Part shown: piece after piece, positions 4,597 through 20,995 of the stretch
How positions within the stretch are numbered: position 1 is the first letter of the stretch
Layout: each line of letters opens with the position of its first letter
Source of the DNA: Prevotella sp.
GTDB lineage: Bacteria > Bacteroidota > Bacteroidia > Bacteroidales > Bacteroidaceae
Reading direction: 5' to 3'
Assembly (NCBI GenBank): GCA_017964785.1
Contig: JAGCRH010000134.1
Location: 1 to 35,962, forward strand
DNA length: 35,962 nt
Translations under genes and position numbers: made by a program
Notes under the pieces: model-generated
What the model saw: only the letters and a program-made list of their open reading frames with translations
Told to the model about the DNA's origin: nothing
Database searches by the model: none

Positions 4597-4634
4597 CAGA
4601 CTATATAACGTGATAATCGGCTGTTTATTGCATT

Positions 4635-4692: not shown

Positions 4693-4720
4693 GAGGTTTC
4701 ATTTTTTATTCGTACCTTTG
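4689..4720 (+). promoter_or_regulatory. Consensus Bacteroidetes promoter for the 4725 gene
   Basis: TTTG at 4689-4692, a 20-nt spacer, then TACCTTTG at 4713-4720: a full consensus match. It lies immediately before the ATG at 4725, so the transcript is leaderless or has a leader of only a few nt, and this excludes the longer upstream in-frame start. Confidence 0.8.
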
Positions 4721-4724
4721 CGCT

Positions 4725-5372
4725 ATGATTTACGAAATGCTGATAGGAATACTGGTTTATGCGGTGCTGTTCATCGTAACAGTGCAGAGCAGTCGGCGGA
4801 AGGTGCTGGCTTTGCAGGAGCGTCTTGATAAGGTACGCGCCCTCCAAGAACTGCAACAGGCCCAGAGCCGTCAGAACATTGACCAGAACGAGGCCAAGAT
4901 CCGTGAGTTGGAGACGTTGCTTCAAAAACTCGGCGATGAAAACTCCCTGCTCCGTCTGGAACTGGAAGAGAAGAAAGCCACCCTTGATTATAATAATAAG
5001 GTGGCGATCATCGAGAACGAGAAACGTCAGCAGGCAGAGACCGTCATCTTCACTTCCAGCATCTACCATCGGATTCAGAACTGCCTTAATAGTGGGCGCA
5101 GTCTCGGACATGAGGACTGGTCGGAGTTGTCGGAGATCGTGAATAGCGTCTATACAGGCTTTACGGAGAAACTCTACAGCCTCTACCGGATGACAGAACA
5201 GGACTATCACGTCAGTCTGCTCATCAAGGTGAGGGTACAGCCGAAGGACATCGCCCTGCTGACGGCACACTCGAAGGAGAGTGTGGCCTCTACCCGTAGC
5301 CGTCTCTATCAGAAAGTCTTCGGACAAAAAGGCTCCTCAAAGGACTGGGATGATTTTGTGTTATCACTCTAA
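4725..5372 (+). CDS. Membrane-anchored coiled-coil protein with C-terminal HTH-like domain
   Basis: 215 aa from the ATG at 4725; an earlier in-frame ATG at 4635 lies upstream of the promoter and inside the tandem repeat, so it is rejected. One N-terminal membrane helix (about 5-21, MLIGILVYAVLFIVTV) is followed by basic residues (SSRRK), giving a cytoplasmic C-terminus. A coiled coil runs from about 26 to 108 (Leu/Gln/Glu heptads). The end (155-215) has the pattern LYRMTEQDYHVSLLIKVRV, KDIALLTAHSKESVASTRSRLYQKVFG, WDDFVLSL. It resembles the LuxR-like HTH end of Bacteroidetes TPR-type regulators, where RLYKK and a final DEFI motif recur. It is probably a membrane-tethered transcription regulator. 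The target could be the divergent TonB receptor or its own promoter (inference). It is followed by NfeD after 33 nt. Confidence 0.7.
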   Translation: MIYEMLIGILVYAVLFIVTVQSSRRKVLALQERLDKVRALQELQQAQSRQNIDQNEAKIRELETLLQKLGDENSLLRLELEEKKATLDYNNKVAIIENEKRQQAETVIFTSSIYHRIQNCLNSGRSLGHEDWSELSEIVNSVYTGFTEKLYSLYRMTEQDYHVSLLIKVRVQPKDIALLTAHSKESVASTRSRLYQKVFGQKGSSKDWDDFVLSL

Positions 5373-5405
5373 ACAATAAACATTAAACAATAAACAATAA
5401 ACGTT
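5371..5405 (+). repeat. Five phased AAACAAT-type heptamers between stop and start codons
   Basis: Starting in the stop codon of the preceding gene and ending exactly at the NfeD ATG, the sequence divides into five 7-mers: AAACAAT, AAACATT, AAACAAT, AAACAAT, AAACGTT. They form the whole intergenic spacer. There is no Shine-Dalgarno-like sequence, and the A-rich run probably serves as the translation-initiation region. Confidence 0.75.
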
Positions 5406-5867
5406 ATGATTGATTATTTAGCACAGCACTTATGGCAGATGTGGGCGGTGATAGCCGTCGTCTGTCTGATTTTGGAACTCACAGCGGGTGATTTCTTCAT
5501 CATCTGCTTCTCCATTGGTGCCTTCTTTGGTGCCATAGCAGCAGCCTGCGGATTAGGCTTCTATGTGCAACTGGTCATTTTCGCCGTGTTCACGCTGATC
5601 AGCCTCTTCTGGGTACGGCCCTTTGCCCAGCGCTATCTGCACAAGGGTGAGGACAACCGTGTGAGTAATGCCGATGCCTTGCTGGGTCGTCAGGGCAGGG
5701 TAGTGGAGTCTGTCAAGGCCGACGGTTTTGGACGTGTCCAGATTGATGGCGACATCTGGAAAGCCGTCACGAACGAAGCCCAGGACATCCCTGAGAATGC
5801 GAACGTCCGCGTCGTAGGGCGCGAGAGTACCATCATCACAGTAGAAACAATAAACATTAATCAATAA
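5406..5867 (+). CDS. NfeD family membrane protein
   Basis: 153 aa. Three membrane helices (about 11-27, 29-49 and 52-71, including WAVIAVVCLILELTAGDFF) are followed by a soluble OB-fold domain at about 87-150 (ALLGRQGRVVES, GRVQIDGDIWKAV). This is the short NfeD1b form, without the N-terminal ClpP-like protease domain. NfeD proteins are nearly always encoded beside an SPFH/stomatin gene, as here (next gene after 17 nt), and are thought to act with it in membrane microdomain organisation or quality control. Its final codons (TININQ) are encoded by an AAACATT-type heptamer array that runs on into the spacer, so the C-terminus may vary among relatives. Confidence 0.9.
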   Translation: MIDYLAQHLWQMWAVIAVVCLILELTAGDFFIICFSIGAFFGAIAAACGLGFYVQLVIFAVFTLISLFWVRPFAQRYLHKGEDNRVSNADALLGRQGRVVESVKADGFGRVQIDGDIWKAVTNEAQDIPENANVRVVGRESTIITVETININQ

Positions 5868-5884
5868 TTAAACATTAAGACATT
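5845..5884 (+). repeat. AAACATT-type heptamer array across the NfeD stop codon
   Basis: AAACAAT (5845-5851), AAACATT (5852-5858) and AATCAAT (5859-5865) are adjacent, then AAACATT recurs at 5870-5876 before the ATG at 5885. The same heptamer family occurs at 5371-5405, one gene upstream. The array encodes the last residues of NfeD and forms the spacer to the SPFH gene. Confidence 0.65.
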
Positions 5885-6829
5885 ATGAGTTACGTACTTA
5901 TTGCTATCGTCGTTCTGGTGATTCTGTTCGCCAAAATGGCACTTGTGATTATCCCCCAGTCGGAAACCAAGATTGTGGAGCGCTTAGGCCGCTATTATGC
6001 CACGCTGAAGCCGGGTATCAACATCATCATCCCCTTCATCGATCGGGCCAAGTCTATCGTTGTGCTCAACCACGGGCGCTACCAGTACTCTACCACCATC
6101 GATCTGCGTGAACAGGTCTATGACTTCCCCAAGCAGAACGTGATCACGAAGGATAACGTGCAGACGGAGATCAATGCGCTGCTCTACTTCCAGATTGTAG
6201 ATCCCTTCAAGGCTACTTATGAGATCAACAACCTGCCCAACGCCATCGAGAAACTGACGCAGACCACCCTGCGTAACATCATCGGTGAACTGGAACTCGA
6301 TGAGACGCTGACCTCTCGTGACACTATCAACAAGAAGTTGAGCGCCGTGCTCGACGATGCCACCGATAAGTGGGGCGTCAAGGTCAACCGCGTGGAACTG
6401 CAGGACATCACGCCTCCCGACTCCGTGCTTACTGCCATGGAGAAGCAGATGCAGGCCGAGCGTAACAAGCGTGCACAGATCCTGACCTCCGAGGGACAGA
6501 AGGCTGCCGAGATCCTGGCATCTGAGGGTGAGCGTACGGCTATCGTCAACAAGGCCGAGGCCGCCAAGGAACAGGCTATCCTTGAGGCCGAGGGTGAGGC
6601 TCAGGCCCGTATCCGTAAGGCTGAGGCTGAGGCAAAGGCCATCGAACTGATCACCGAGGCAGTGGGCAAGAGTACCAATCCTGCCAATTACCTGTTGGCC
6701 CAGAAGTATATTCAGATGATGCAGGAACTGGCTGAGGGCGACAAGACCAAGACCGTTTACCTGCCTTACGAGGCTACGAACCTGCTGGGCTCGATAGGTG
6801 GTATTAAGGACCTGTTTAAGTCAGAATAA
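5885..6829 (+). CDS. SPFH/Band 7 domain protein (stomatin/QmcA-like)
   Basis: 314 aa. An N-terminal membrane anchor (2-24, SYVLIAIVVLVILFAKMALV) leads directly into an SPFH domain (about 20-190: VIIPQSETKIVERLGRYYATLKPG, LREQVYDFPKQNVITKDNV, VKVNRVELQDITPP). An Ala/Glu/Lys-rich coiled coil (about 185-260) and a short C-terminal tail follow. Proteins of this type form large ring-shaped membrane assemblies that organise microdomains and often modulate membrane proteases. The NfeD partner precedes it, so the two are an operon and a likely complex. A T6GCA6 palindrome after the stop (6833-6846) is too AT-rich to be a convincing terminator. Confidence 0.93.
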   Translation: MSYVLIAIVVLVILFAKMALVIIPQSETKIVERLGRYYATLKPGINIIIPFIDRAKSIVVLNHGRYQYSTTIDLREQVYDFPKQNVITKDNVQTEINALLYFQIVDPFKATYEINNLPNAIEKLTQTTLRNIIGELELDETLTSRDTINKKLSAVLDDATDKWGVKVNRVELQDITPPDSVLTAMEKQMQAERNKRAQILTSEGQKAAEILASEGERTAIVNKAEAAKEQAILEAEGEAQARIRKAEAEAKAIELITEAVGKSTNPANYLLAQKYIQMMQELAEGDKTKTVYLPYEATNLLGSIGGIKDLFKSE

Positions 6830-6882
6830 TACTTTTTTGCAAAAAATAGGGGCAGAATGACGTATTTCTGAATATAATTGTG

Positions 6883-6890
6883 TAAATTTG
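6883..6890 (+). promoter_or_regulatory. Promoter -7 box upstream of dapA
   Basis: TAAATTTG matches TAnnTTTG and lies 47 nt before the dapA ATG at 6938. The -33 region is poor (TTTC near 6865). Its position inside a longer in-frame extension that begins at 6878 argues that translation really starts at 6938. Confidence 0.55.
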
Positions 6891-6937
6891 CACCCGATTT
6901 CGGCACTTTGCCGCATCACAAAGCAAATTCATACTGT

Positions 6938-7825
6938 ATGGTACACAATATATTCAAGGGACTGGGCATCGCCCTTATAACCCCATTCAAGGAAGACGGC
7001 TCCGTTGACTACGAGGCTCTGATACGTCTGGTGGACTATCAACTCAGCAACGGTGCCGACTTCTTTTGTATTCTTGCTACGACAGGAGAGACACCGACGC
7101 TGACGGCTGCCGAGAAACTCAAAATCAAGGATACGGTTGTCGATTACGTTCAGGCCCGTGTTCCCATCCTGATGGGATGCGGTGGCTATAATACGGCGGC
7201 TGTCGTGGAAGAGTTGAAGACGGGTGATTTCCGTGGGGTGGACGGTATTCTCAGTATCTGTCCGTATTACAACAAACCGTCGCAGGAAGGACTCTATCAG
7301 CACTTCAAGGCAATCTCTGCCGCTACCAGTCTCCCTATTGTGATGTATAATGTACCAGGCCGTACAGGTGTCAATATGCAGGCAGCCACCACCGTCCGTT
7401 TGGCCCGTGACTGCCAGAATATCGTAGCCATCAAGGAGGCGAGCGGTAATCTGGAGCAGGTCGATGAGATTATCAAGAACAAGCCCAATGATTTCGATGT
7501 CATCTCCGGCGATGATGCTTTGACCTTCCCGATGGTCAGTTGCGGGGCTGTGGGTGTCATCAGTGTGATTGGTAATGCCCTGCCTAAGGAGTTCTCCAAG
7601 ATGATCCGTTTGCAGATGCGTGGCGAGTACGACCCTGCCCGCAAGATCCATCATCGCTTCACCGATCTTTTCTCTCTGCTCTTCGTCGATGGCAACCCTG
7701 CTGGTGTTAAGGCGATGCTTTCGGAGATGGGCTTTATCCAGAATGTGCTCCGTCTGCCACTGGTTCCCATGCGTATCAAGAACATGCAGCGCATGTCGGA
7801 GATTCTTAAGGAATTAAAGATATGA
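6938..7825 (+). CDS. dapA: 4-hydroxy-tetrahydrodipicolinate synthase
   Basis: 295 aa. It condenses pyruvate with aspartate semialdehyde, the first committed step of lysine and diaminopimelate synthesis. The ATG at 6938 (MVHNIFKGLGIALITPF) is preferred over the upstream ATG at 6878, whose 20 extra residues overlap the promoter. Catalytic features are visible: the TTGE motif (48-51), Y137 in YNVPGRTG, and the Schiff-base lysine K166 in VAIKEASGN; GDDALTFP follows later. The length matches the family. The stop codon overlaps the start of an AraC regulator (ATGA), so the two are translationally coupled. lysC and lysA of the same pathway lie about 11 kb downstream on the other strand. Confidence 0.96.
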   Translation: MVHNIFKGLGIALITPFKEDGSVDYEALIRLVDYQLSNGADFFCILATTGETPTLTAAEKLKIKDTVVDYVQARVPILMGCGGYNTAAVVEELKTGDFRGVDGILSICPYYNKPSQEGLYQHFKAISAATSLPIVMYNVPGRTGVNMQAATTVRLARDCQNIVAIKEASGNLEQVDEIIKNKPNDFDVISGDDALTFPMVSCGAVGVISVIGNALPKEFSKMIRLQMRGEYDPARKIHHRFTDLFSLLFVDGNPAGVKAMLSEMGFIQNVLRLPLVPMRIKNMQRMSEILKELKI

Positions 7826-8706
7826 CAGAAAGCAAGGTTATCCACGAGATTACCCCGCTGATGGGTAAGGATGTGCTCTACATTGCTGAACGCCGCAAGA
7901 AGGAGTTCACATACCCCATCCATAATCACAAGGTGTTTGAATTGAATTTCGTAGAGCATGCCCCTGGCGTGCGCCGTATTGTTGGCGACTCCAGCGAGGT
8001 GATTAGTGATTACGACTTGGTGCTGATCACTGGCCCAGATTTGGAACATGTATGGGAGCAGAATATCTGTAGCAGCGAAGATATCCACGAGATAACAGTT
8101 CATTTTGATATCGACTTCTCTGACAGCAGTATCTTCGGACGCAATCCTTTCAGGTCGCTGCAGAAGATGATGAACGAGGCCCAGAAGGGACTTTGCTTCC
8201 CAATGGATGCCATCATGAAAGTCTATCCGATGCTCTGTAAACTGAGTAGCATCAAGGATGGCTTCTATGCGTTTCAACAATTCCTCAGTATCCTCTACGA
8301 ACTCTCGCTCTGTCCCGGGGCCCGTACGCTTGCTACAAGCAGTTATGCCAAGGTCGAAGTCGCCAGTGACAGTCGTCGGGTACTGAAGGTCAAGAACTAT
8401 ATCAATGCGCATTATCGCGACGAGATCCGTCTGGCCGATGTTGCCAGTCTGGCAGGTATGAGTCCGAGTGCTTTCAGCCGTTTCTTCAAATTGCATACTG
8501 GGCGCAACCTCAGCGACTATATCATCGAACTGCGCCTAGGCTACGCCAGTAGGATGTTGGTAGACAGTACCCATTCCATTGCTGAGATAGGCTATGGCTG
8601 CGGCTTCAATAATCTGAGCAATTTTAATCGTATTTTCAGGAAGAAGAAGGGGTGCAGTCCGTCAGAATTCCGCGAAAACTATCATAAAACGCGTATTATC
8701 GTATAA
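7822..8706 (+). CDS. AraC family transcriptional regulator
   Basis: 294 aa. The N-terminal half has a cupin-like sensor pattern (YPIHNHKVFELNFV, VISDYDLVLITGPDLEHVW, about 28-100). The C-terminal AraC domain (about 188-290) has two HTH units: EIRLADVASLAGMSPSAFSRFFK (201-223) and SIAEIGYGCGFNNLSNFNRIFRKKKG (252-277), followed by SPSEF. HNH and DLEH in the sensor could bind a metal or sugar ligand, as in sugar-responsive AraC regulators. It overlaps dapA by 4 nt, which is unusual: there is no obvious reason for a lysine-pathway gene to share a transcript with a sugar-type regulator. A hairpin with a T-run follows the stop codon. Confidence 0.9.
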   Translation: MTESKVIHEITPLMGKDVLYIAERRKKEFTYPIHNHKVFELNFVEHAPGVRRIVGDSSEVISDYDLVLITGPDLEHVWEQNICSSEDIHEITVHFDIDFSDSSIFGRNPFRSLQKMMNEAQKGLCFPMDAIMKVYPMLCKLSSIKDGFYAFQQFLSILYELSLCPGARTLATSSYAKVEVASDSRRVLKVKNYINAHYRDEIRLADVASLAGMSPSAFSRFFKLHTGRNLSDYIIELRLGYASRMLVDSTHSIAEIGYGCGFNNLSNFNRIFRKKKGCSPSEFRENYHKTRIIV

Positions 8707-8710
8707 TAAT

Positions 8711-8731
8711 AGTGCAAAATAGCACTTTTTT
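8711..8731 (+). terminator. Intrinsic terminator after the AraC regulator
   Basis: AGTGC at 8711-8715 and GCACT at 8722-8726 form a 5-bp stem with a 6-nt loop, followed by T8726-8731. The stem is short but directly follows the stop codon and precedes the tRNA promoter. Confidence 0.55.
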
Positions 8732-8751
8732 CTAAAAAAGTCCCTAAAAGA

Positions 8752-8783
8752 TTTGGTCAGTTCAGAAAAAGTGCGTACCTTTG
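8752..8783 (+). promoter_or_regulatory. Consensus promoter of the tRNA-Arg gene
   Basis: TTTG at 8752-8755, a 20-nt spacer, and TACCTTTG at 8776-8783: a full Bacteroidetes promoter match, about 20 nt before the tRNA 5' end. Confidence 0.85.
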
Positions 8784-8804
8784 CACCCGCAAAAAGGAAC
8801 AAAG

Positions 8805-8878
8805 GGTTCCGTAGCTCAACTGAATAGAGCATCTGACTACGGATCAGAAGGTTGTGGGTTTGAATCCCGCCGGAATCA
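8805..8878 (+). tRNA. tRNA-Arg (anticodon ACG)
   Basis: A 74-nt cloverleaf. The acceptor arms GGTTCCG (8805-8811) and CGGAATC (8871-8877) pair with one G-U, followed by discriminator A8878. The D stem is GCTC/GAGC. The anticodon stem TCTGA/TCAGA encloses CTACGGA, giving anticodon ACG at 8839-8841, which reads CGN Arg codons after A34 is converted to inosine. The T stem GTGGG/CCCGC carries a T loop starting TTTGAAT. The 3' CCA is not encoded (CA follows), as is common in this phylum. Confidence 0.97.
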
Positions 8879-8882
8879 CAAG

Positions 8883-8917
8883 AGAGATGAAGTCCATCGG
8901 ATTTCATCTCTTTTTTT
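8883..8917 (+). terminator. Intrinsic terminator after tRNA-Arg
   Basis: 8883-8895 pairs with 8899-8911 in a 13-bp stem with one G-U and a 3-nt loop, followed by seven T. It starts only five nt after the tRNA. It is the clearest terminator in the window. Confidence 0.9.
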
Positions 8918-8993
8918 GTTAAGAAAATATGCCTAAAAAAGCAACTCCGCGATTGAGCGTTCTGGGTGAAAAGAACGGTGCAAAAGGCGGTGG

Positions 8994-9164
8994 AGGCTGA
9001 ATAGAGGTAGAATAGAGGTTGAATAGATGCTTTATTCGGGTCGTTTAGATGCTCCAAACAACCTGTTCGGATAATCCCTATGGGGGTATAGAGATTATCC
9101 GAACGAGTTGAAAGTGCCATTTGAACAGGTGAAAAGGACCATCTGAACGACTCAAAGGTGACCT
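8994..9164. repeat. Inverted array of 11/22-nt degenerate repeats around a central hairpin
   Basis: On the right, three 22-nt units (9099-9120, 9121-9142, 9143-9164) share NNGAAC at the start, an A-rich middle and CCAT/CCT at the end. On the left, reading the minus strand, units at 9070-9049 (starting CCGAAC), 9048-9027 and 9026-9005 have the same length and similar ends (GCAT, GCAT, ACCT). The left part also splits into 11-mers: AGGCTGAATAG, AGGTAGAATAG and AGGTTGAATAG at 8994-9026. The two sides mirror each other across the hairpin at 9065-9104; 9040-9055 and 9136-9151 are inverted copies with two mismatches. An 11-nt unit shifts the reading frame, so this is not a protein repeat. Confidence 0.65.
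9065..9104. repeat. Long perfect hairpin at the centre of the repeat array
   Basis: GTTCGGATAATC (9065-9076) and GATTATCCGAAC (9093-9104) form a perfect 12-bp stem. After one mismatch, CTAT (9078-9081) and ATAG (9088-9091) add 4 bp, leaving a G-rich 6-nt loop. There is no T-run on either strand, so it is not an ordinary terminator. Confidence 0.75.
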
Positions 9165-9305
9165 ATCCTTGTGCCGATGGAATGGTATGAAACGTAACTC
9201 GCATATTGTCAGTGGTTTAACGAAATTGCTCATAACTCGCGTATTTGCGGACAAGATCCTGTTTCCTGACTGCGGTGCGAGTTTTAAGAAACTATTTGTA
9301 AAGAT

Positions 9306-10265
9306 TTATTTCAATTTTGTCAGTTCCTCCCAGTGCTGACGGGCTGCTTCCTCACCGGCCTTGATCATCCTGGCACTGTTCTTATTGCCGAAACTCGTCA
9401 CGTCGTAGTCGGGGATATCGGGATGGATATAGATATCTGCCAGTTTCTTGTTCTCCACATGTTTGCGAATGTCAGGACGGTTGGTCAGCCATTCGATCAC
9501 GCCACCCAGTCCGAGGAAATCCCCGATACTGGTCAGCAGCGAGGTGTCTGCCTGTGGCTTCGGTTGCTTTTCCTCCTGTTGCAAGTCGATGGCGATGATG
9601 ATGTCGGCACCCATCGCCTTACATACATCCACAGGCAAGTTGTTTAACAAACCGCCGTCCACCAACAGATGGTCGCCCTTGCTCACAGGCTTGAAGATGC
9701 CTGGTATCGCTATCGAGGCCCGTATGGCCGAGGCAAGGATGCCTTTTGAGAGTACCACTTCTTGAGCCGTACGCATATCGGCGGCGACACACCTGAATGG
9801 AATCCGCAGACTCTCAAACTCTGTGCAGCCACGAACAGATGCCATTGAGTCGAGCACCTGTTCAATCCTTCCGCCTCTCATTAAGCCAAAGCCTTGGCTG
9901 TTCCTGTCCATTACGGGAAAGCCGAATATGTAGGTCACGCCGCCCTCAGTCTTATACGGCTCGTTGCTGAACGCTGCCTTCCGGTCTGTCAGCAGCGAAA
10001 GCCATTCCTGCGTCTGAAACATCGTTTCGAGTTCATCAGCCGTATATCCTGCTGCATAGAGTCCACCCACTATAGCACCAATTGACGAGCCTGCGATATA
10101 GTCGATAGGTATGCCTGCCTGTTCAATCACTTTCAGTACACCTACCTCGGCAGCGCCCTTGGCTCCGCCACCGCCTAACACCAGCCCGATCTTGGGCCTT
10201 CCTGCCATAGTCGCTGATGCCATAAAAACGGCAATCAGGATTGTGAATAATCGTTGTAGTTTCAT
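9306..10265 (-). CDS. Exported patatin-like phospholipase (RssA-like)
   Basis: 319 aa from the ATG at 10265; the open frame extends 24 codons further but that part overlaps promoter sequence. A signal peptide is likely at 1-21 (MKLQRLFTILIAVFMASATM, then AG). The patatin fold follows: glycine-rich oxyanion hole GGGGAKG (31-37), nucleophile S61 in GSSIG (59-63), and catalytic D203 in VDGG. It should hydrolyse acyl esters of lipids in the periplasm or at the outer membrane. The length is close to single-domain patatins; the C-terminal barrel of the long two-domain patatins is absent. It is transcribed divergently from the sigma/sensor fusion gene with 80 nt between starts. A -7-like box TATTTTTG lies at 10274-10281 on its strand. 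Confidence 0.88.
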   Translation of the reverse strand: MKLQRLFTILIAVFMASATMAGRPKIGLVLGGGGAKGAAEVGVLKVIEQAGIPIDYIAGSSIGAIVGGLYAAGYTADELETMFQTQEWLSLLTDRKAAFSNEPYKTEGGVTYIFGFPVMDRNSQGFGLMRGGRIEQVLDSMASVRGCTEFESLRIPFRCVAADMRTAQEVVLSKGILASAIRASIAIPGIFKPVSKGDHLLVDGGLLNNLPVDVCKAMGADIIIAIDLQQEEKQPKPQADTSLLTSIGDFLGLGGVIEWLTNRPDIRKHVENKKLADIYIHPDIPDYDVTSFGNKNSARMIKAGEEAARQHWEELTKLK

Positions 10266-10315
10266 TTCGGTTGCAAAAATAATAAAAAGAATGATTGTAT
10301 ATGATATTTTTTCAT

Positions 10316-10323
10316 TATCTTTG
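10316..10323 (+). promoter_or_regulatory. Promoter -7 box for the sigma/sensor fusion gene
   Basis: TATCTTTG matches TAnnTTTG and lies 22 nt before the ATG at 10346. The -33 element is weak (ATTG near 10294-10297, 18 nt away). Because the box is downstream of the first in-frame ATG at 10295, the start at 10346 is the supported one. Confidence 0.65.
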
Positions 10324-10345
10324 CAAGCAAGAAACAATTTTTAAG

Positions 10346-13300
10346 ATGGAAGAATCTGGCTTAAACAAATATTTGGACGAGATTGGCCGCGAGTCGTTGC
10401 TTTCGGCAGAGGAGGAACGGACCCTGTCGGAACGCATCCAGAAAGGTGACGAACGGGCCCTCAACAAACTCGTAGAGGCAAACTTGAGGTTTGTGGTGTC
10501 GGTTGCCAATCAGTACAAGGGCAAGGGCTTGCAGATGGAAGATTTGGTGAGTGAGGGCAATATCGGACTATTGAAGGCTGCAGGGCATTTCGATGCCTCG
10601 AAAGGTACGCGTTTCGTGAACTATGCCGTCGTCCATGTCCGCCAGCAGATTGAGAAAGCCATCAGTCAACAGGTAGGCCTCTACCAGTTGCCTCGTGACG
10701 TGAAGCAGGAGGCCGCCGCTCGGCTGCAGAGTTATCCTCTGTCTGTTGATGCACCTTTGGGCCACCGCACGAACATGAGTTTGTTGTCCGTCTTGGTGAA
10801 CCAGGATGCGCCCTTAGCCGATGAACGTGTCCATTCCGAGTCCATCGAGGATGCGATAGAGTATGCCTTAGGTGCTTTGGACGAACGTGAGAGTAGGGTG
10901 GTGAATGCCTATTTCGGTATCAGCCAGGAGCACGAGACGATGGCTGAGATTGCCGAGGATATGGAGTTGAAGCGAGAGCGCGTCCGACAGATACGTGACA
11001 AGGCTGTCCGTAAACTCCGTAAGGCCTACAAGTCACGTCTTCGCGAACTGCAGAGGCTTGTCATGTTACTTGGATTGTTGTTGGTGACTGTTGTTGCCAC
11101 GGCTGACAGCGATAAGGTCTTCTATGTCTATAATGCCGCTAACGGTTTGGCAGATAACAGTGCGCAGACCGTAAACTGCACCAAAACGGGGCGTCTGGTG
11201 ATCACGACGATGGGACAGATAAACTTCTACGACGGCCAGAAGTTCAGTTTTATCGACCCCTCTACAGAAAACACATATCCGCTTTCGAAATATAATGGTC
11301 ATGCCCATCAATATTTTGACAAGCATCATCACCTTTGGTTGAAGACACGTCACCAGTTGACTTGTGTAAATCTGACCAACGAAATGTTTGTGCATAATAT
11401 TGTTGATGAATTCAAGGCGTTGGGAATGACTGACAAGGTGGAGGATCTCTTCGTGGACAGCAGCAACGATGTATGGTTGCTGACCGAGAAAGGACTCTTT
11501 CATACTGAGAGTCATAAATATTATCAGGTGCAACCGAAGTGGAATTTACAGGAACTGGATACTTACGACAACAAATATCTCCTTCTTTTCTATGACAACG
11601 GACAGTTGGATGCCCTGAACTTAGGTACGGGCGAGATGGTGAATTCCGTGAAGGCTTACGATGCTCCAAAAGCGGAGAAATACAACCGGACAACCGTTGT
11701 CCACAGGGTGGGGAACTTCTATTATCAGATACGTAATGGGTCTGTGAACGGCAACTCGGTGGGCATCCTGCTTCGTTTCGATATGGCGAAATGGAAATAT
11801 GATACCATCTTGGAGACACCTTATTATCTTAGTAATACGGTGGAACGTGACTCGCTACTGTACGTGCCCTCTGCATACGGCTATTGGACATACGATATCC
11901 CGACGGGAAAGTTAGAGCATATAGAGAAACTGAAAATGTCCACCGGAGGGATGCTGCTGACGGATATCAATTGTATGGAGTTCGACCGTCAGGGAGGCCT
12001 CTGGGTGGGTACGGAGAAGCGCGGACTGCTCTACGCACGTCCATTCCCGGCACCCTTCAAGTCGTATGGTTGGACTGACAAGCGGGCATTGGATATCTCT
12101 GATTTGTTGGATCGTCAGCCGACACCAGCCACACAGTATCGCGGTATGTCAGTGAATTGCGTGCTTCACGATTCACGTGGATGGGACTGGGTCGGTACGT
12201 CTGTGGGGCTGCAACTTTATCAGAACAACAATAACCATCTGCCTCAACTCTTCACACGTAATGAGGGATTGATGAACAATGTCATCCACTGTATCGTGGA
12301 AGACCGCGAACATCATATCTGGGTGGGAACTAGTTATGGCGTCTGTTGCCTGGTGATTGAGAACGACAAGGTGAGATATATCAACAGGTACAACCAGTGG
12401 GACGGTGTGCCCAATGAATCGTTTGTCAACGGACGCTCGATGATTATGCCTGACGGTGAGATTGTGATGCAGGCGCTCGATCACGTGATTGCATTCAATC
12501 CCAGCCAGATGAAGACACTCAATGACTCCGTCAAGTTTGAGATCTATCCCAAACTCATACGCCTCATGGTGAATGGAAACGATATTGGAACTGGTCAGAA
12601 GTTGGGAGGGAATGTGATCCTCGAACGTGCGCTGACCCGTACGAAGGAAATCAATCTGAACTACGATCAGAACAGTATTTCCCTGACCTTTTCCGGCTTG
12701 AACTTTTTCCGACCCCAGCAGACTTACTATCGGGTGCGTCAGACGGGGCCTGGTCGAAGCGGGAAATGGGAGTTGTATACACCCTATAACTCGCAAGGCA
12801 TGGTTGACAGGTCCGGTCTCCTGCATCTGCCGATGGCCTCCTTGCAGCCTGGTCATTATACGGTTGAGGTGCAGTCCTCTATGCTGCCCGATGTATGGGA
12901 TACAACGCCCTATGAGTGGATTGTCAACGTCCATGAGCCTTGGTGGCGCACCACGGGTGTGCTGGCGCTTCTTGGTCTTGGACTCTTGTTTTTGTTGATG
13001 GTCTATGTCTTACTCTATCTGAGAAATGCCAATTTGCGGGCCCGTCGTATCAGTGAGGAGATGGGCATCATCAGACGTATCAGGACATTTGTGGAGCGTT
13101 GTGATGCTAAGAACGGATCCATCTTGGAGCCTCAGCCTGAGGTGGTTGCAGGTACATTTGAAATCTCAGGTGATTTCAGTCCGGAGTTCATTGAGGCCAT
13201 GACAGCCATTATGCCTACGGTTGCCCAAAAGAGCGAGAAGCCTCTCTCCATGCGTGATTTGAGTAATGTGGCAGGATTGAAGTTGGATGAATTCTGTAAA

Positions 13301-13507
13301 CTGATAGCATCGAACATCTATAAGAACCCGCGTCCGATAGCCATGCAGATGATGCTGAATCGTGCTGCGGATATGCTGTTGAGGAATCGTCAGAAGGATA
13401 TTGCGGAGATTTCAGACGAGTGTGGCTTTGTTTCGCCCAACTTCTTCATCGCCTCGTTCTATCATAAGTTTAAGAAGACGCCAGAGCAGTATCGGTATCA
13501 AAAGTAG
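10346..13507 (+). CDS. Sigma-70-like domain fused to periplasmic beta-propeller/Y_Y_Y sensor and AraC HTH
   Basis: One open frame of 1053 codons with no stop at the junction. Residues 1-235 are a sigma-70 protein: region 1.2 (5-38, LNKYLDEIGRESLLSAEEE), region 2 (39-112, NLRFVVSVANQYKGKGL, DLVSEGNIGLLKAA), little of region 3, a 3.2-like finger (133-160, SVDAPLGH), and region 4 (168-235, MAEIAEDMELKRERVRQIRDKA). A hydrophobic stretch at 238-252 after KSRLRELQR ends in an ATA/D signal-peptidase-like site. Periplasmic two-component-type propeller repeats follow, with W331, W377, WVGT at 553, 615 and 659; then a Y_Y_Y domain (795-860), a membrane helix (871-893) and an AraC domain (967-1053). There is no histidine kinase or receiver. 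It may be a membrane-held regulator responding to an extracellular ligand (inference). Alternatives: a lost stop codon between two genes, or a sequencing error. Confidence 0.8.
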   Translation: MEESGLNKYLDEIGRESLLSAEEERTLSERIQKGDERALNKLVEANLRFVVSVANQYKGKGLQMEDLVSEGNIGLLKAAGHFDASKGTRFVNYAVVHVRQQIEKAISQQVGLYQLPRDVKQEAAARLQSYPLSVDAPLGHRTNMSLLSVLVNQDAPLADERVHSESIEDAIEYALGALDERESRVVNAYFGISQEHETMAEIAEDMELKRERVRQIRDKAVRKLRKAYKSRLRELQRLVMLLGLLLVTVVATADSDKVFYVYNAANGLADNSAQTVNCTKTGRLVITTMGQINFYDGQKFSFIDPSTENTYPLSKYNGHAHQYFDKHHHLWLKTRHQLTCVNLTNEMFVHNIVDEFKALGMTDKVEDLFVDSSNDVWLLTEKGLFHTESHKYYQVQPKWNLQELDTYDNKYLLLFYDNGQLDALNLGTGEMVNSVKAYDAPKAEKYNRTTVVHRVGNFYYQIRNGSVNGNSVGILLRFDMAKWKYDTILETPYYLSNTVERDSLLYVPSAYGYWTYDIPTGKLEHIEKLKMSTGGMLLTDINCMEFDRQGGLWVGTEKRGLLYARPFPAPFKSYGWTDKRALDISDLLDRQPTPATQYRGMSVNCVLHDSRGWDWVGTSVGLQLYQNNNNHLPQLFTRNEGLMNNVIHCIVEDREHHIWVGTSYGVCCLVIENDKVRYINRYNQWDGVPNESFVNGRSMIMPDGEIVMQALDHVIAFNPSQMKTLNDSVKFEIYPKLIRLMVNGNDIGTGQKLGGNVILERALTRTKEINLNYDQNSISLTFSGLNFFRPQQTYYRVRQTGPGRSGKWELYTPYNSQGMVDRSGLLHLPMASLQPGHYTVEVQSSMLPDVWDTTPYEWIVNVHEPWWRTTGVLALLGLGLLFLLMVYVLLYLRNANLRARRISEEMGIIRRIRTFVERCDAKNGSILEPQPEVVAGTFEISGDFSPEFIEAMTAIMPTVAQKSEKPLSMRDLSNVAGLKLDEFCKLIASNIYKNPRPIAMQMMLNRAADMLLRNRQKDIAEISDECGFVSPNFFIASFYHKFKKTPEQYRYQK

Positions 13508-13508
13508 A

Positions 13509-14735
13509 CTATCTTAATTCTATCTGGCGATAACTGACCAGTCGCCAAGTCCTTTCTCCCGTTCCTTTATAATAGGCATAGGCCTGATAGCGGTTTTCTG
13601 TCTGGAAGAAGTTTCCTTCCGAGGGTAGGAAGGTGGTGCTGCCGTCGTCCTTCAACCACAGATATTGGTAGTTGTAGTAGCCTTGCTTTTGCAGGATGCG
13701 GGTATGATACATGCCTTCTTCCTCGTCGTATGCCATTACATAGTTGTAGATGTTGTCATCGGTAGTCCATTGGCCGTCGATGATGACTTTTCCTTCTGGG
13801 AGTCTGGGGGCCTTCAGACGATAGTTTATCCATACATAGTCGCTGATAATGTCGTTTTCACGATTGTCGCTGTTGCGGATGTAGAATGCACCGTCGGCAT
13901 CCTCGTCGTATATGTAGTTGGGCCTTGGCTCGTTCATAAACGGGAAGGCCTGATAGTAAGTGCCGTCCCATCGGATGAAGTCAATACCCATAGTAGGGTG
14001 ACTCACATCAAGTACCTCAAACTTGTGGTACTCATTCCCTGCATCGAAGATGAGGGCTTTGTTGTGCGTCCATTCCAGTCCATTGGCATTTTGGAAGTTG
14101 GGCTTGACATTTTCTCTGGCGTTCCCTCCATTCTGCATGATAACGGTCTTGATCTGATCTTCGGGGTTGGTCACAAGCAAACCGCTATATCCCAGTTTCA
14201 TCGACACCTGCTGATGACTATCGTTCAAATCGATGTCTGTATTAGTGGTCACGCTGAGAGATAGGTTCATTATCTGCTCTGTTACCATAAATTCCACTGT
14301 CAGGTTCTCTTCGTTGTCATTGTCATCGTCGAATATATGCAGACGGTAGTTGCCGCTCATCTTCAGGCGACAACGCTCATTGGGTATCTGCAGATGATAG
14401 TGGGTATAGGCCACCGTTGTGTTCACCGAGTTCTCATAATTGTCGATGGGATTATTGTTAAACCCTTCCAACCAGTCACTTTCAAAGATTTCCTCGGAAG
14501 TGGTCCAGTCGGCCTCGCAGTGTTCCACCTTATATATATATCTATGGTAGATGTGGGAGAGTTCGTCGAAAGAGATGTTCAGTATATCATCTGTACCTAA
14601 GCGCATGACAGCGGGTGAGAGCCAGTCCTGGTTTACCACAACCTGTAAAGACCTGATTTGTGGATCGTGAATCTTGCTTTTGGCAAAGGCCATCAGCGGC
14701 ATCAGCAGCATGGTGATGATGAGTAGTCGTTTCAT
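13509..14735 (-). CDS. Type IX secretion system plug protein (DUF5103)
   Basis: 408 aa. Signal peptide at 1-18 (MKRLLIITMLLMPLMAFA). The body is beta-rich with features of DUF5103: HDPQIRSLQVVVNQDWLSPAV, DILNISFDELSH, YKVEHCEADW, IHYHLQIPNE-like NERCRLKMSGNYRLHI, and a C-terminal Ig-like part with YNYVMAYDEEEGMYHT and GYYNYQYLW. In the T9SS, members of this family close the SprA translocon channel when it carries no cargo (established for the Flavobacterium plug). It is the last gene of a tight minus-strand run, 9 nt after fbp. Its stop codon is one nt from that of the convergent fusion gene, with no terminator between them. Confidence 0.88.
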   Translation of the reverse strand: MKRLLIITMLLMPLMAFAKSKIHDPQIRSLQVVVNQDWLSPAVMRLGTDDILNISFDELSHIYHRYIYKVEHCEADWTTSEEIFESDWLEGFNNNPIDNYENSVNTTVAYTHYHLQIPNERCRLKMSGNYRLHIFDDDNDNEENLTVEFMVTEQIMNLSLSVTTNTDIDLNDSHQQVSMKLGYSGLLVTNPEDQIKTVIMQNGGNARENVKPNFQNANGLEWTHNKALIFDAGNEYHKFEVLDVSHPTMGIDFIRWDGTYYQAFPFMNEPRPNYIYDEDADGAFYIRNSDNRENDIISDYVWINYRLKAPRLPEGKVIIDGQWTTDDNIYNYVMAYDEEEGMYHTRILQKQGYYNYQYLWLKDDGSTTFLPSEGNFFQTENRYQAYAYYKGTGERTWRLVSYRQIELR

Positions 14736-14744
14736 TTCGTTCTA

Positions 14745-16736
14745 CTAACTACGTTTCTCGGTGATGATGCCGTGACGATAGGCATAGAGCAGTTCTTTTA
14801 GGTCTGCTATCTGAGCCCGCAGTTCCTTGCCTTTGTCCGTATCGGCTACGAGCATACGGTGGGCTGACATCTCCACAATCTGTGTGGTCGATTTGATGTC
14901 TGTTCCATTGACTATCGCTTCACGGGCAGAAGTAAACGGTGCGTGCTGCACAAGTTGGAAACCACGTGAGTGATAGACGAGGGTGTAGCCTGCAATACCT
15001 GTCTCAGAGTGGTAGGCTTCAGAGAATCCTCCGTCAATGACCATCAGTTTACCGCCTGCCTTGATGGGGTTCTCGCCCTTTGAGGCGTGGACAGGTACGT
15101 GACCGTTAATGATATGTCGGTTCTCGCCCTTGACCTCAAAGGCATCGAGGATACGGTCGCATATTTCTTCGGAGTCACGGAGTTTGAAGTAGTTGCCTTT
15201 TTCCTCTTTATAGGTCTCTTTGTCTTTAAGGAAGTAACGCTCGAAGGTGGCCATCTTTGACTTGTCAAAGAGAGGGGAGTTTTTGCCACACCAGAGGTAG
15301 AGGAAGTAGTCGCGGGCATAGTCACGAGGATATTCATCCGCCGGGCCTGCGTTAGAGTTGAAGGCTGCGCGGATCATCATGCCGATGTTGTGCATCAGGT
15401 CTTTGCCGCTATATTTCTTGCCAGGATAGATTTCCACCTCTTTCAGTGAGCCGTCGTCATTGAGGGGAATGCTCGCATGAAAAAGCAGGTTGGAATTGCT
15501 GATGGCATACATACACCCATGAGAGAGGATGGTGCGGATATGCTTCTGCAGTTTCTCACTGATACGGAAGGAGTGGTGGAGTTTCTCCATCAACTGCCAT
15601 TCCTCTTCGGTAAAGGCATTGGGATCAGACGGGTCGATGGTGGGGAAGTTGCAGGAACGCATCTCGTATGCCTTCCCGTCTATCGTGCAGATGCTACGCT
15701 GGTAGTCTACGTGGTTGAAGAGACTGCGATCCTGCATCTGCCATTCGGGATGACGACCAAAGATCTTAGCCTCCTCCTTGAGTTGGAGGACGGTAATGGC
15801 CTTATGCATCTTCGCCGTCAACTGACGGGTCTTTTCGTCAATGTCATTATCACGTAAGAGTATAGGTAAGAATTCCTCACAGGGGTCATCACCATAGACC
15901 TCTAAAGCAAAAGTGGCCAGTGGCACAAGGTTGATGCCGTACTCCTCAAGGGTGGCGAGGTTAGCATAACGCAGACTAAGACGTAGCACGTTACAGATAC
16001 AGGCATTATTGCCAGCCGAGGCTCCCATCCAGAGAATATCATGATTGCCCCACTGAATGTCCCAGGAGTGATACTGCCGCAGCGTCTCCATGATCTTATG
16101 AGCCCCAGGGCCACGATCGTATATATCACCGAGAATGTGCAACTGGTCGATGGCGAGGCGTTGTATCACGTTACAGATAGCCTCGATAAAGGCATCGGCA
16201 CGTCCCGTTGAGATGATAGTATCGACGATGACAGCCACATAGGCTGCCTTATCCTGGTCGTCGGTACGTTCGTGGAGCAGTTCCTCGATGATATAGGAGA
16301 AATCATCGGGCAGCGACTTACGTACCTTGCTGCGTGTGTATTTACTACTGACATCACGGCACACTCGTACCAGTTGGTGAATAGTGATGCGGTACCAGTC
16401 GTCAAGGTCTGTCTCCTGTGCTTTGATAAGTTCCAATTTCTGCTCAGGGTAGTAGATCAGGGTGCAGAGTTCTTTCTTCTCCGACTCACGGATGGTGTTG
16501 CCGAAGAGTTCGTTCACCTTACGCTTGATATTGCCTGAAGCATTCTTGAGCACGTGCTGGAAGGCCTCACTCTCACCATGTATGTCGGCCAAGAAATGCT
16601 CTGTGCCTTTGGGCAGGTTCATGATGGCCTCCAGATTGATGATTTCCTTTGCGGCATCAGCGATGGTGGGAAATGATTGCGAAAGCAGTTGCAGATAGTG
16701 TCTGTCTGCCTGATTGTAAGGGTGTTTAGATGTCAT
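14745..16736 (-). CDS. fbp: Class III fructose-1,6-bisphosphatase
   Basis: 663 aa, full length for the Firmicutes/Bacteroidetes class III enzyme (about 640-670). It hydrolyses fructose-1,6-bisphosphate to fructose-6-phosphate in gluconeogenesis. Metallophosphatase motifs are clear: FLADIHGESEAF (D51, H53), GDIYDRGPG (203-211) and WGNHD (229-233); INGHVPVHASKGENPIKAGGKLMVIDGGFS near the C-terminus completes the metal site and is diagnostic for the class. Its start overlaps the stop of the glycosyltransferase upstream (ATGA), showing translational coupling. Confidence 0.96.
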   Translation of the reverse strand: MTSKHPYNQADRHYLQLLSQSFPTIADAAKEIINLEAIMNLPKGTEHFLADIHGESEAFQHVLKNASGNIKRKVNELFGNTIRESEKKELCTLIYYPEQKLELIKAQETDLDDWYRITIHQLVRVCRDVSSKYTRSKVRKSLPDDFSYIIEELLHERTDDQDKAAYVAVIVDTIISTGRADAFIEAICNVIQRLAIDQLHILGDIYDRGPGAHKIMETLRQYHSWDIQWGNHDILWMGASAGNNACICNVLRLSLRYANLATLEEYGINLVPLATFALEVYGDDPCEEFLPILLRDNDIDEKTRQLTAKMHKAITVLQLKEEAKIFGRHPEWQMQDRSLFNHVDYQRSICTIDGKAYEMRSCNFPTIDPSDPNAFTEEEWQLMEKLHHSFRISEKLQKHIRTILSHGCMYAISNSNLLFHASIPLNDDGSLKEVEIYPGKKYSGKDLMHNIGMMIRAAFNSNAGPADEYPRDYARDYFLYLWCGKNSPLFDKSKMATFERYFLKDKETYKEEKGNYFKLRDSEEICDRILDAFEVKGENRHIINGHVPVHASKGENPIKAGGKLMVIDGGFSEAYHSETGIAGYTLVYHSRGFQLVQHAPFTSAREAIVNGTDIKSTTQIVEMSAHRMLVADTDKGKELRAQIADLKELLYAYRHGIITEKRS

Positions 16737-17809
16737 ATTGTCAGATGGTTAGTAATCAGTTTGCGTATTTGTTGTGTTCCCCTGTCGTCTGCCGACGGTA
16801 GGGGCATATAACCTTCTTCCAAGAGTGTCTGTTCTTGCAGGATCTGCATGAGTCGTGAGGCATATTTCAACAGTTTCTTTTCTTCGAGGGCCTGTTTTAA
16901 CAGGTTATCATCAATCGTGTCCCGTCGCAGTTCGCGGGCCAGTTCAATGAGATGCAGCAACAGGGGTTGCTTCTCTATCTGACAGATCATACGCACCAGA
17001 TAGTCCGTCTCGTCGCCCTTGTATTCTCCAATGATATCCTTCAGCGGCACAGATTGCTGCCAGTTGTCTGGAAAGTAGGCCGTAATCTTGGAGGTGTCGA
17101 GACTGGGTGTCTCCAGACCGAGAATACTGATGCCGTAATCTACGTAATTACGGATGTTTTCGTGTTCGGCATATATCAGTAGCCTGCGCCAGTCAGTCTC
17201 CTGACTGCAGACCACCGGTTCCTGAACCCATCGTTTGTCACCAGTTATACCTGCCTTGAGAATTACTGCCAACAGTTGTTTTGTAGTCTCATCCATCTGT
17301 TCCAGGACATTGGAGTCCATCACCTTCTGGTAGACGGCGAATGTTTGTGTACACATCTCCTGCGGGGTGAGGCTGTTGGTGATTATGCAGTTGCGGATCA
17401 CCTCTATGCGCTGGTTCCATTTCAATAGTCTGAGGTGTTTCTGCTCCATATTGCCAAAGGCAATGACAGCATAGGTGCATTCAACGCTCCTCTTTTGCCA
17501 AAGCAGAGTCTTGTGCAGTTTCTCCTGCAACGATTTCTCCTCAAGTATCCATGGCTCCAGTTGTCCGTGTGGAGAGAGGATAATGCGTGCACCGTTCTTG
17601 CGGGCGGCATTGGCGGCATTCACAATGGCATATTGCCAACATCCGTGACAGTGTACGATGTCTGGCTTCATCTGTCGGCAGATGGTCTTGAAGTCGCTGG
17701 GTGAGTCCGTGGCTCTGACATCGGCACTATGGCGCATACCCTCTAACAATATATTGACATGCTTGGCAATCATATTGTCTGACTTCGGGTATATATGCAG
17801 TACCTTCAT
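16733..17809 (-). CDS. Glycosyltransferase family 4-like protein lacking the usual nucleotide-binding C-terminal domain
   Basis: 358 aa. The first 150 residues fit the GT4-type acceptor-binding Rossmann domain: MKVLHIYPKSDNMIAKHVNILLEGM, KPDIVHCHGCWQY, GARIILSPHGQLEPWILEEKS, and IEVIRNCIITNSL at about 135-147, where the second domain would normally begin. The rest is not a recognisable Glycos_transf_1 domain: the EX7E nucleotide-sugar motif is absent and the sequence is mainly helical (WRRLLIYAEHENIRNYVDYGISIL, LLHLIELARELRRD). It may be inactive, act with a partner, or carry out something else. It lies between a GT2 gene and fbp in one operon, so a role in surface glycan assembly with the GT2 protein is plausible but not shown. 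Confidence 0.7.
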   Translation of the reverse strand: MKVLHIYPKSDNMIAKHVNILLEGMRHSADVRATDSPSDFKTICRQMKPDIVHCHGCWQYAIVNAANAARKNGARIILSPHGQLEPWILEEKSLQEKLHKTLLWQKRSVECTYAVIAFGNMEQKHLRLLKWNQRIEVIRNCIITNSLTPQEMCTQTFAVYQKVMDSNVLEQMDETTKQLLAVILKAGITGDKRWVQEPVVCSQETDWRRLLIYAEHENIRNYVDYGISILGLETPSLDTSKITAYFPDNWQQSVPLKDIIGEYKGDETDYLVRMICQIEKQPLLLHLIELARELRRDTIDDNLLKQALEEKKLLKYASRLMQILQEQTLLEEGYMPLPSADDRGTQQIRKLITNHLTI

Positions 17810-17825
17810 GATGGAGAAAGGATAA

Positions 17826-18458
17826 CTAATTGCTGTTCTGGCACATCACAGCCAGTCTGAGACCCATCAAACGGCGGAAGCCAATCTTCTGTTCGAAATA
17901 CTTCAGGAGGTCGTGGGCCTTATTGGTCTTCACAACGATGAAGTCATATTTGCCACGCAGGTATTTCAGGTGTTTCCCCTTATGGCCGTCAGCCCTTTTC
18001 CGTTCTGCCTTTCTGATAAGACGGCGTGCCTGGGTGATATCATCGAAGAGTTGTATCTTAGTACCTTTCTTCCGATAATAGCCAATCATAGCCTCTGTCG
18101 AGGAGTCCATACACTCGGAAATTTCTTTTAACCATTCTCCAGAGGGGGGCTGCTTGTGTATGTCTGTCAGTATAACCCATTCATTCTTAGCCGCTTTTAC
18201 TCCAATCGTTAGAGCCAGTTTCCGACGCATGATGTTACGGTCGGGCTTAGGAAGGAAAGTGTTGTAGAGGTGTGGGTTATCATGTCTGAACAGTTTCAGC
18301 ACATCTTCCGTATTATCGGTAGAAGACTCGTCAACGACAATGACTTCATAGCCTGGCTCATACGTCTGGGTAAGGAATGTGGGGAGGTTTTCTTCCAACT
18401 CCTGAGCATTGTCACAGACAGCCATGATAACGGAAAAACGGCATGCTTCTTTTGTCAT
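17826..18458 (-). CDS. Family 2 glycosyltransferase, short form
   Basis: 210 aa. A GT-A fold start is clear: FSVIMAVCDNAQELEENLPTFLTQTY then YEVIVVDESSTDNTEDVL (about 36-53), with nucleotide-binding D and the basic LALTIGVKAAKNEWVILTDIH. The usual metal-binding DxD position reads D-I-H, so the second acid is replaced by His. This may alter metal use or activity. The C-terminal part is rich in basic residues (RKAERKRADGHKGKHLKY), suggesting peripheral membrane contact. It probably adds a sugar to an envelope glycan; the acceptor is unknown. It lies 11 nt after lysA and 16 nt before the GT4-like gene. Confidence 0.8.
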   Translation of the reverse strand: MTKEACRFSVIMAVCDNAQELEENLPTFLTQTYEPGYEVIVVDESSTDNTEDVLKLFRHDNPHLYNTFLPKPDRNIMRRKLALTIGVKAAKNEWVILTDIHKQPPSGEWLKEISECMDSSTEAMIGYYRKKGTKIQLFDDITQARRLIRKAERKRADGHKGKHLKYLRGKYDFIVVKTNKAHDLLKYFEQKIGFRRLMGLRLAVMCQNSN

Positions 18459-18469
18459 GTTGGATTTGT

Positions 18470-19630
18470 TTATAAATCGTCGCTCATATAGCCTATTGGC
18501 AGTTTGCGACAGTTGTATTGAGAGGCCATGATCTCACCATAGGCTCCTGCAGAACGGATAGCCAACAGGTCGCCCCGACGGGTACCGTTCAGGTCTATTT
18601 GTTTGGCGAAGACATCTGTAGACTCACAGATGGGGCCTACCACGTCGTAGGTGTCATTGGGTTCCTCGCTGGTGATATTCTCAATCTTGTGATATGCCTG
18701 ATAGAGGGCTGGCCGGATGAGATCGGGGAATCCTGCATCTACAATGGCGAACTTCTTCAGGGCCCCTTTCTTAATATATAAGGTACGCGTGATAAGACTT
18801 CCGCATTGGGCCACCATTGCCCGTCCGAGTTCGAAGTGAAGCGTCTGACCAGGACGTAGTTTCAATTTCTTGGCGTAGGTATCGAAATAGGCCTTGAAAT
18901 CAGGAATAGGCAGACGGTTCGGATGTTCATAGTCCACGCCGAGGCCACCGCCCACATTGATGTGCTCTGCACGGATACGGTGACTGTCGAGGACGTTTTG
19001 TAGTTCGTTGACTCGGTTGCAGAGGGCCTCGAAATCTCCCATGTCAAGAATCTGCGAACCTATATGGAAATGCAGTCCCACGAATTTTACATTAGGTAGT
19101 TTCTCGGCCTCGGCTATTACGTCGAGCATGTCACGCATGGCAATGCCAAACTTGTTCTCTGCCAGTCCCGTCGTGATATTCGCATGGGTATGTGCTCCCA
19201 CATTGGGGTTCAGGCGGAAAGCCACGCGTGCCACTTTACCCTTGGCGGCAGCCAATTCGTTGATGACCTCGAGTTCGGGTATGCTCTCCACGTTAAAGCA
19301 GAAGATATCATTGTCCAGTCCGAGGTTGATTTCCCAATCAGCCTTGCCCACGCCGGCATAGACGATCTTATTTGTGGGGAAACCTGCCTTGACGACGGTT
19401 TCTATCTCACCACCACTGACGCAGTCGGCTCCCATGCGGGCCTCGCGGATAAGACGGAGAACTTTCGGGTTAGCATTGGCCTTGATGGCGTAGTGTACCA
19501 CAAAGCCCTCATGCCTGCCAGCCTCTTCGTTGATGGTGCTCAGTGTCTGGCGCAACACTTCCGCATCATAGTAGTAGAAGGGCGTCTGTATCGTCTGCAA
19601 TTTCTCTACGGGGAATTTTCCTTTGCCCAT
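18470..19630 (-). CDS. lysA: Diaminopimelate decarboxylase
   Basis: 386 aa. PLP-dependent alanine-racemase-type barrel that decarboxylates meso-diaminopimelate to lysine. The PLP lysine is K50 in VVHYAIKANANP. HIGSQI (189-194) and GGGLGVDY (227-234) bind the cofactor phosphate. C335 in CESTDVF is the acid-base residue from the partner subunit, and AGAYG (361-365) is conserved. It is somewhat shorter than the roughly 415 residues of many homologues but complete in motifs. It follows lysC by 30 nt on the same strand. Confidence 0.96.
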   Translation of the reverse strand: MGKGKFPVEKLQTIQTPFYYYDAEVLRQTLSTINEEAGRHEGFVVHYAIKANANPKVLRLIREARMGADCVSGGEIETVVKAGFPTNKIVYAGVGKADWEINLGLDNDIFCFNVESIPELEVINELAAAKGKVARVAFRLNPNVGAHTHANITTGLAENKFGIAMRDMLDVIAEAEKLPNVKFVGLHFHIGSQILDMGDFEALCNRVNELQNVLDSHRIRAEHINVGGGLGVDYEHPNRLPIPDFKAYFDTYAKKLKLRPGQTLHFELGRAMVAQCGSLITRTLYIKKGALKKFAIVDAGFPDLIRPALYQAYHKIENITSEEPNDTYDVVGPICESTDVFAKQIDLNGTRRGDLLAIRSAGAYGEIMASQYNCRKLPIGYMSDDL

Positions 19631-19660
19631 AATTAGTCTGTGTTGTGTTTTTGTCGGTTC

Positions 19661-20980: not shown

Positions 20981-20995
20981 ATGCTTTGTTTTTTA

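Follow-up and report, generated by a model that had tools for sequence, protein, structure and literature searches.

Hybrid two-component systems (HTCS) have an AraC-type output, and sigma factors of the extracytoplasmic function (ECF) type are defined by regions 2 and 4, without region 1.2. Some ECF sigma factors carry built-in membrane and extracytoplasmic parts; excerpts of PMC8999054 name IutY (ECF243), which is released by proteolysis, SCO4117 (ECF52), and ECF48 and ECF53, and SCO4117 is also the subject of PMC5826349. The window analysed here, an entire contig of 35 962 bases (G000:C86), belongs to a Prevotella metagenome-assembled genome (MAG) of 147 contigs and 81% completeness. One open frame in it (10346–13507, + strand) joins a sigma-70 family factor to a propeller/AraC regulator that has no kinase. 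The locus has the appearance of a recent and isolated gene fusion, or possibly of an assembly join; it does not look like a new signalling system kept by evolution. The first-pass annotation had proposed an evolved single-chain signalling device. This was not borne out: close relatives have two separate genes, the outcome that the annotation itself had named as refuting, and the halves are linked by a signal peptide that contains a candidate site for its removal. Below, L numbers denote loci and G numbers the genomes compared.

The open frame and its counterparts in relatives

The frame runs without a stop for 1053 codons, from the ATG at 10346 to 13507, in the list of open reading frames, just as the first-pass annotation had stated; counted from a TTG it extends over 10295..13507 (+), giving 1070 aa. 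A Pfam scan (cut-off E ≤ 0.1) also confirmed that sigma regions 1.2, 2 and 4, a propeller and an AraC domain share this frame. Matches were obtained to Sigma70_r1_2 (residues 7–36, E 9e-11), Sigma70_r2 (42–108, E 8e-15), Sigma70_r4 (174–226, E 6e-12), Reg_prop (E 2.4e-13) and HTH_18/AraC (973–1050, E 2e-9). At the same cut-off the protein gave no match to Sigma70_r3 (nor did the unfused orthologue L061, at E ≤ 0.01), to the Y_Y_Y model, to histidine kinase or receiver domains, or to an anti-sigma-like or zinc-finger domain. The calculated mass of the fused protein is 120.5 kDa, and hydropathy indicated two hydrophobic segments, at about residues 232–256 and 867–897.

The sigma part (residues 1–235; 10346..11050, +) was delimited by Pfam, NCBIfam and the end of homology at 11047–11050; its domain content suggests a sigma-70 family factor outside the ECF group. 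The regulator part holds a propeller sensor with a strand-rich domain, which together make up an HTCS-type periplasmic region predicted to be exported (11105..12943, +; Reg_prop, structure matches and model). These are followed by a transmembrane helix (residues about 867–897; 12944..13036, +; hydropathy, and a helix in the model) and the AraC-type HTH_18 DNA-binding domain (13262..13495, +). Both a sequence search and Foldseek matched the exported part to the periplasmic domains of the Bacteroides HTCS-type structures 3v9f, 4a2l and 3ott. The regulator part (residues 237–1053) was modelled alone, separately from the sigma factor, from an alignment of ten sequences. The model was of moderate quality (mean pLDDT 70, pTM 0.48) and showed strands and a long helix, with a C-terminal domain made up of helices. 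Because it is only moderate, whole-chain TM-scores against the HTCS-type chains were low (0.14–0.29), with strong E-values, and the Foldseek match was used for domain type only. The model also predicted a strand-rich stretch at 499–627 of the 817-residue regulator part, ahead of the membrane helix. From this stretch and the periplasmic structure matches, the Y_Y_Y domain named in the first-pass annotation is plausible, in spite of the missing Pfam match.

In close relatives the two halves are separate genes. There sigma ends at a stop codon of its own, with one exception that is fused to another protein, and the propeller/AraC regulator is a complete gene of some 820 codons with its own start, mostly on a different contig from sigma. 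Residues 1–234 are orthologous to the 237 aa sigma factor L061 (94% identity), while residues 237–1053 are orthologous to the regulators over the propeller, membrane helix and AraC domain (86–91% identity to the six nearest aligned). In Red_deer_1_mag_188, the closest named genome, sigma (94%) and regulator (89%; L054, 824 aa, unfused) lie on two contigs. A scan of named genomes returned 22 loci; in the fetched stretches, eight held the regulator only, 12 sigma only and one (L071) both as separate genes, the remaining locus being a Clostridia fragment that matched over 42 residues. From 549 to 11050 the window keeps the gene order of sigma loci such as L065, a patatin-like gene between an AraC gene and sigma included, and from 11054 to 23009 that of regulator loci such as L054. 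The domain order of the window protein was not seen in the related Prevotella examined, in which the halves occupy separate neighbourhoods.

Wider searches gave the same picture. Among the matches listed for 150 genomes of the genus (the source genome included), sigma and regulator lay at different places. When 398 genomes of the genus (again with the source genome) were searched with a 137-residue junction query, the window was the sole match listed that covered the whole query; some others started 13–21 residues into it and either held stops or lay in frames no longer than 865 aa, which could not accommodate both proteins. A conserved sigma-propeller-AraC system was rejected on this ground. 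In a draw of 399 genomes from the family, a sigma match was found in 21, and the 20 besides the window lay in frames of 226–317 aa. Since these matches (E ≤ 1e-40) came from 2 of 30 genera, the sigma family seems largely confined to this genus.

Selection was examined with a simple Nei-Gojobori script, in which two saturated pairs gave no value. Between the window and Red_deer_1_mag_188, dN/dS was 0.052 for sigma and 0.070 for the regulator; over all pairs with the window it ranged from 0.050 to 0.081 and from 0.058 to 0.088, respectively, with dS from 0.59 upward, and over pairs among the other sequences from 0.054 to 0.162. Both halves are thus under purifying selection, and the domain matches and low dN/dS show that the frame codes for protein beyond chance. 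This constraint mostly dates from before the fusion and says nothing about selection of the fused form; the separate functions of the halves account for it.

Some features of the surroundings deserve mention. The patatin-like phospholipase gene (9309–10265, − strand) occupies the same place, between AraC and sigma, in L065 and L066; in L061 and L069 no such gene was found at that position. The gene following sigma varies across most of the L061–L073 species: htpG (L061, L068), glmS, rubrerythrin-like, SusD-like and his genes, all named from a reading of the translations. Because the next gene varies, and several contigs end less than 1 kb after sigma, the sigma 3′ flank is probably a rearrangement-prone spot. 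The sequence ahead of the G013 regulator (L037 about 8000–8400) appeared repetitive by eye. A repeat common to that region and the sequence downstream of sigma in L064 was considered and dropped, since the 18- and 20-base exact patterns occurred once in L037 and were absent from L064.

The junction and its proposed origin

Comparison with relatives (L061–L073 for sigma ends, L053–L059 for regulator starts) placed the junction at codon Q236 (11051..11053, +): sigma homology stops at about 11050 and regulator homology begins at about 11054, with DNA-level regulator matches starting at 11063 or 11076. Sigma orthologues finish with ELRK-stop or similar, while the window has ELQR and then reads on; complete regulator orthologues open like MVIRKNCRFVM (L054), and the window counterpart is RLVM. 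By this comparison, the last sigma codons and the stop are missing at the junction, together with about the first seven codons of the regulator and its native promoter. Next to the junction lies the former signal peptide of the regulator (R237–A253; 11054..11104, +; alignment and hydropathy), now an internal hydrophobic segment. An in-frame ATG in it (M240; 11063..11065, +) is a possible internal regulator start, with AGAGG at 11052–11056, 6 nt upstream.

A 261-base stretch from L057 covering the regulator promoter matched the source genome solely from 11063 onward, on this contig, and the native promoter region was not found elsewhere in the source assembly. The 146 bases around the junction had a single match in the source genome. 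No tandem repeat was found at the join, where no overlap between sigma-like and regulator-like sequence, k-mer-sized or otherwise, was seen. A repeat-driven misjoin was rejected because of the missing tandem repeat and the single genomic match. Both breakpoints fall within a few codons of the gene ends, and the reading frame is kept. Sequences that flank sigma and regulator in Red_deer_1_mag_188 are on other contigs of the source genome, or absent from it.

With a unique, overlap-free and repeat-free junction, in frame and at two gene ends, a true rearrangement of recent date is more likely than a chimeric contig, and the join is quite probably real. The alternative, that the contig joins non-adjacent loci of one genome, or of two strains or species, and that the frame is accidental, carries a small but appreciable probability. 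It would have to accommodate the absence of a k-mer-sized overlap, the single match of the junction, the position of both breakpoints, and the occurrence elsewhere of sigma followed by the regulator on one strand: 8.2 kb apart in L071 and, with regulator-like matches downstream of sigma paired by eye, about 17 kb apart in G345, 22 kb in G144 and 36 kb in G023 and G100. Several observations do weigh against a genuine fusion. Among the matches listed, it occurs in this one MAG assembly, which is incomplete and fragmented, and in close relatives sigma and regulator are on different contigs; in G265 and G117 they are far apart (about 650 and 430 kb) on opposite strands. Sigma contigs of relatives several times end less than 1 kb past sigma (for example, L064, L066, L067 and L015), so assemblies tend to break there. 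In a chimera test, nucleotide identity was compared gene by gene with seven relatives, of which three contributed just sigma and patatin to the left side; it gave 91.6 on the left versus 84.5 on the right for Red_deer_1_mag_188. This contrast of 7.1 points lies at the upper edge of the range spanned by six control pairs (−0.4 to 7.0), and different stretches of the contig have different nearest relatives. The contrast is no clear anomaly, and mixed origin is still compatible with the test, which bears least on a join of two loci within one genome. On balance, a lineage-specific, probably recent in-frame fusion of a sigma gene and a kinase-less regulator gene is held with somewhat better than even confidence. 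We infer from the sequence that the join exists in the living organism and is translated, and the same basis holds for the topology and processing considered next.

In the proposed origin, a chromosomal rearrangement would have set the 3′ end of the sigma-70 gene against the 5′ end of the one-component regulator gene, removing the sigma stop codon, the regulator promoter and about seven initial codons while staying in frame. The regulator might now be read from the sigma promoter or from the internal ATG at 11063. Upstream of the sigma gene, a promoter-like motif of the TAnnTTTG type, the Bacteroidales −7 consensus, was recognized in the sequence (10316..10323, +). The topology of membrane proteins follows the positive-inside rule, and cleavage by signal peptidase the AxA rule. 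The sigma part would remain cytoplasmic, and the old signal peptide would act as an internal export signal sending the propeller outside. The sigma C-terminus ahead of it is basic (net +8 over residues 215–238) and might serve as its new n-region. The A-T-A at residues 251–253, before D254, is a candidate signal-peptidase site. Cutting after A253 would yield a sigma factor with a hydrophobic tail and a normal mature regulator, both nearly ancestral; otherwise, the sigma factor would be tethered at the membrane. These two would be the likeliest fates of the product. The topology given in the first-pass annotation, with sigma and AraC domain in the cytoplasm and the propeller outside, is supported as a prediction. 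Its picture of one intact chain fares less well: as the linking segment descends from a signal peptide and still carries a candidate cleavage site, it cannot be taken for granted that the protein works as one chain.

That picture would make of the protein a selected single-chain device, whose periplasmic propeller controls the sigma factor and the AraC domain of the same molecule via release or rearrangement. The continuous frame with its domains and the constraint on both halves agree with such a device, and basic residues followed by a hydrophobic segment would permit an N-in/C-out anchor. There are also ECF sigma factors whose chains include membrane and periplasmic segments (PMC8999054, in excerpt). 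However, the arrangement was not seen in any relative examined, and the separate neighbourhoods, the nature of the link and the separate functions that explain the constraint make the device unlikely. A one-molecule switch is possible, with nothing besides the open frame to back it. A neutral accident, in which the fusion is real, sigma is unaffected or impaired, the regulator is made mainly from the ATG at 11063 and the fused product has no role, would account for that ATG with its upstream AGAGG, and for a singleton distribution like that of the three other fusions described below, among the matches listed. It is nevertheless improbable: the internally started product would be without the n-region of the signal peptide, and Bacteroidota generally make little use of Shine-Dalgarno-like sites.

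Other fusions in the sigma family

To place the fusion in its family, 119 distinct sigma loci were read base by base, with identical sequences collapsed and repeats of genomes already included left aside (such as L036–L052, L069, L145, L149, L154 and L155). A sigma match at E ≤ 1e-36 was present in 254 genomes, and those beyond the loci read were judged by open-frame length among the matches listed. The sigma gene had its own stop 2–14 residues past region 4 at 115 of the 119 loci. At the other four it runs in frame into a protein that looks exported, different each time: the propeller/AraC regulator, an M6 peptidase, a DUF4886 protein and one unidentified by Pfam. All four fusions have a strongly hydrophobic stretch starting 1–20 residues past region 4.

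The orthologous sigma factor of RGIG7923 (JAFZNI010000174.1, L067 10001–11596) reads on into a metalloprotease of M6 type whose start resembles a signal peptide; the end of the contig cuts the gene short. In G082 (L140 1810–3306, − strand) the sigma factor is fused to the DUF4886 protein. G007 (L143) holds the unfused counterpart: a sigma gene (74% identical to that of G082), its stop, 15 bp, and then a DUF4886 gene (60% identical). This pair shows an independent case of sigma fusing to its downstream neighbour, which speaks for the fusion reading of the window. In G008 (L141 2665–3861, − strand) the fusion partner of a related sigma factor is about 150 residues long; its start resembles a signal peptide, and Pfam gave no match for it. 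Of 48 matches listed with at least 62% identity to the G082 sigma factor, G082 alone had a frame above 246 aa. Four further candidates were rejected: in G384 (open frame of 580 aa) sigma has its own stop and the long upstream frame was judged non-coding by eye, and in G110, G007 and G134 a stop precedes the downstream gene. Sigma fusions thus appear to arise now and then, none having been seen shared between species among the matches listed.

Unfused loci with a co-directional frame −20 to 60 bp after the sigma stop showed a signal-peptide-like start in 15 of 38 cases by a crude hydropathy rule. At this rate, four exported partners out of four would be expected a few times in a hundred, a rough figure. 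As so many close downstream genes look exported too, the four exported-looking partners are a weak sign of selection. It is conceivable but unlikely that the sigma family repeatedly becomes membrane-tethered through stop loss and capture of a downstream exported gene, the window being one of at least four such captures, and that the tethered state is selected. The captured exported domain would then act as a sensor and, in the window, the AraC domain would help to choose promoters.

If the join is real, the window offers a snapshot of a non-ECF sigma factor gaining a sensor by gene fusion, with unfused relatives sequenced alongside. With four distinct fusions, two of which come from closely related species, the family would supply natural replicates with which to ask whether capture of a signal peptide makes a soluble sigma factor membrane-controlled. 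Should the join prove to be an assembly error, it would caution usefully against inferring new systems from domain architecture in MAGs.

Comparison with known systems

The first-pass annotation knew of no sigma factor with its own periplasmic sensor and a second DNA-binding domain. That comparison leaves aside the ECF sigma factors with built-in membrane and periplasmic segments described in excerpts of PMC8999054. Literature searches of open-licence PMC papers listed no such factor that also has a second DNA-binding domain, nor a single chain of a sigma-70 factor and a propeller/AraC regulator. As in these extended ECF factors (PMC8999054, as excerpted), the C-terminus of the window sigma factor continues via a membrane segment into a predicted extracytoplasmic part. 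Unlike them, it carries region 1.2, the chain goes on to a further membrane helix and then an AraC domain, and the relatives are unfused. Extended ECF factors have anti-sigma-like or zinc-finger segments, as far as the excerpts go, which the window protein did not yield in the Pfam scan. Because region 1.2 is present and an anti-sigma-like segment was not found, the window protein is not a member of this group.

With the Bacteroides HTCS BT4663 and BT3049, and with BT4673, the window protein shares the same kind of periplasmic propeller (3v9f, 4a2l and 3ott), a membrane helix and an AraC-type output. Unlike them it has neither histidine kinase nor receiver by Pfam, and for want of both it is not an HTCS. 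The closest likeness is to two sets of Prevotella proteins. Its regulator half is orthologous to the kinase-less propeller/AraC one-component regulators, but their own start, n-region and promoter are replaced here by the sigma factor. Its sigma half is orthologous to stand-alone sigma-70 family factors such as L061, with the same regions 1.2, 2 and 4, but in the window it has no stop and continues into a predicted exported protein.

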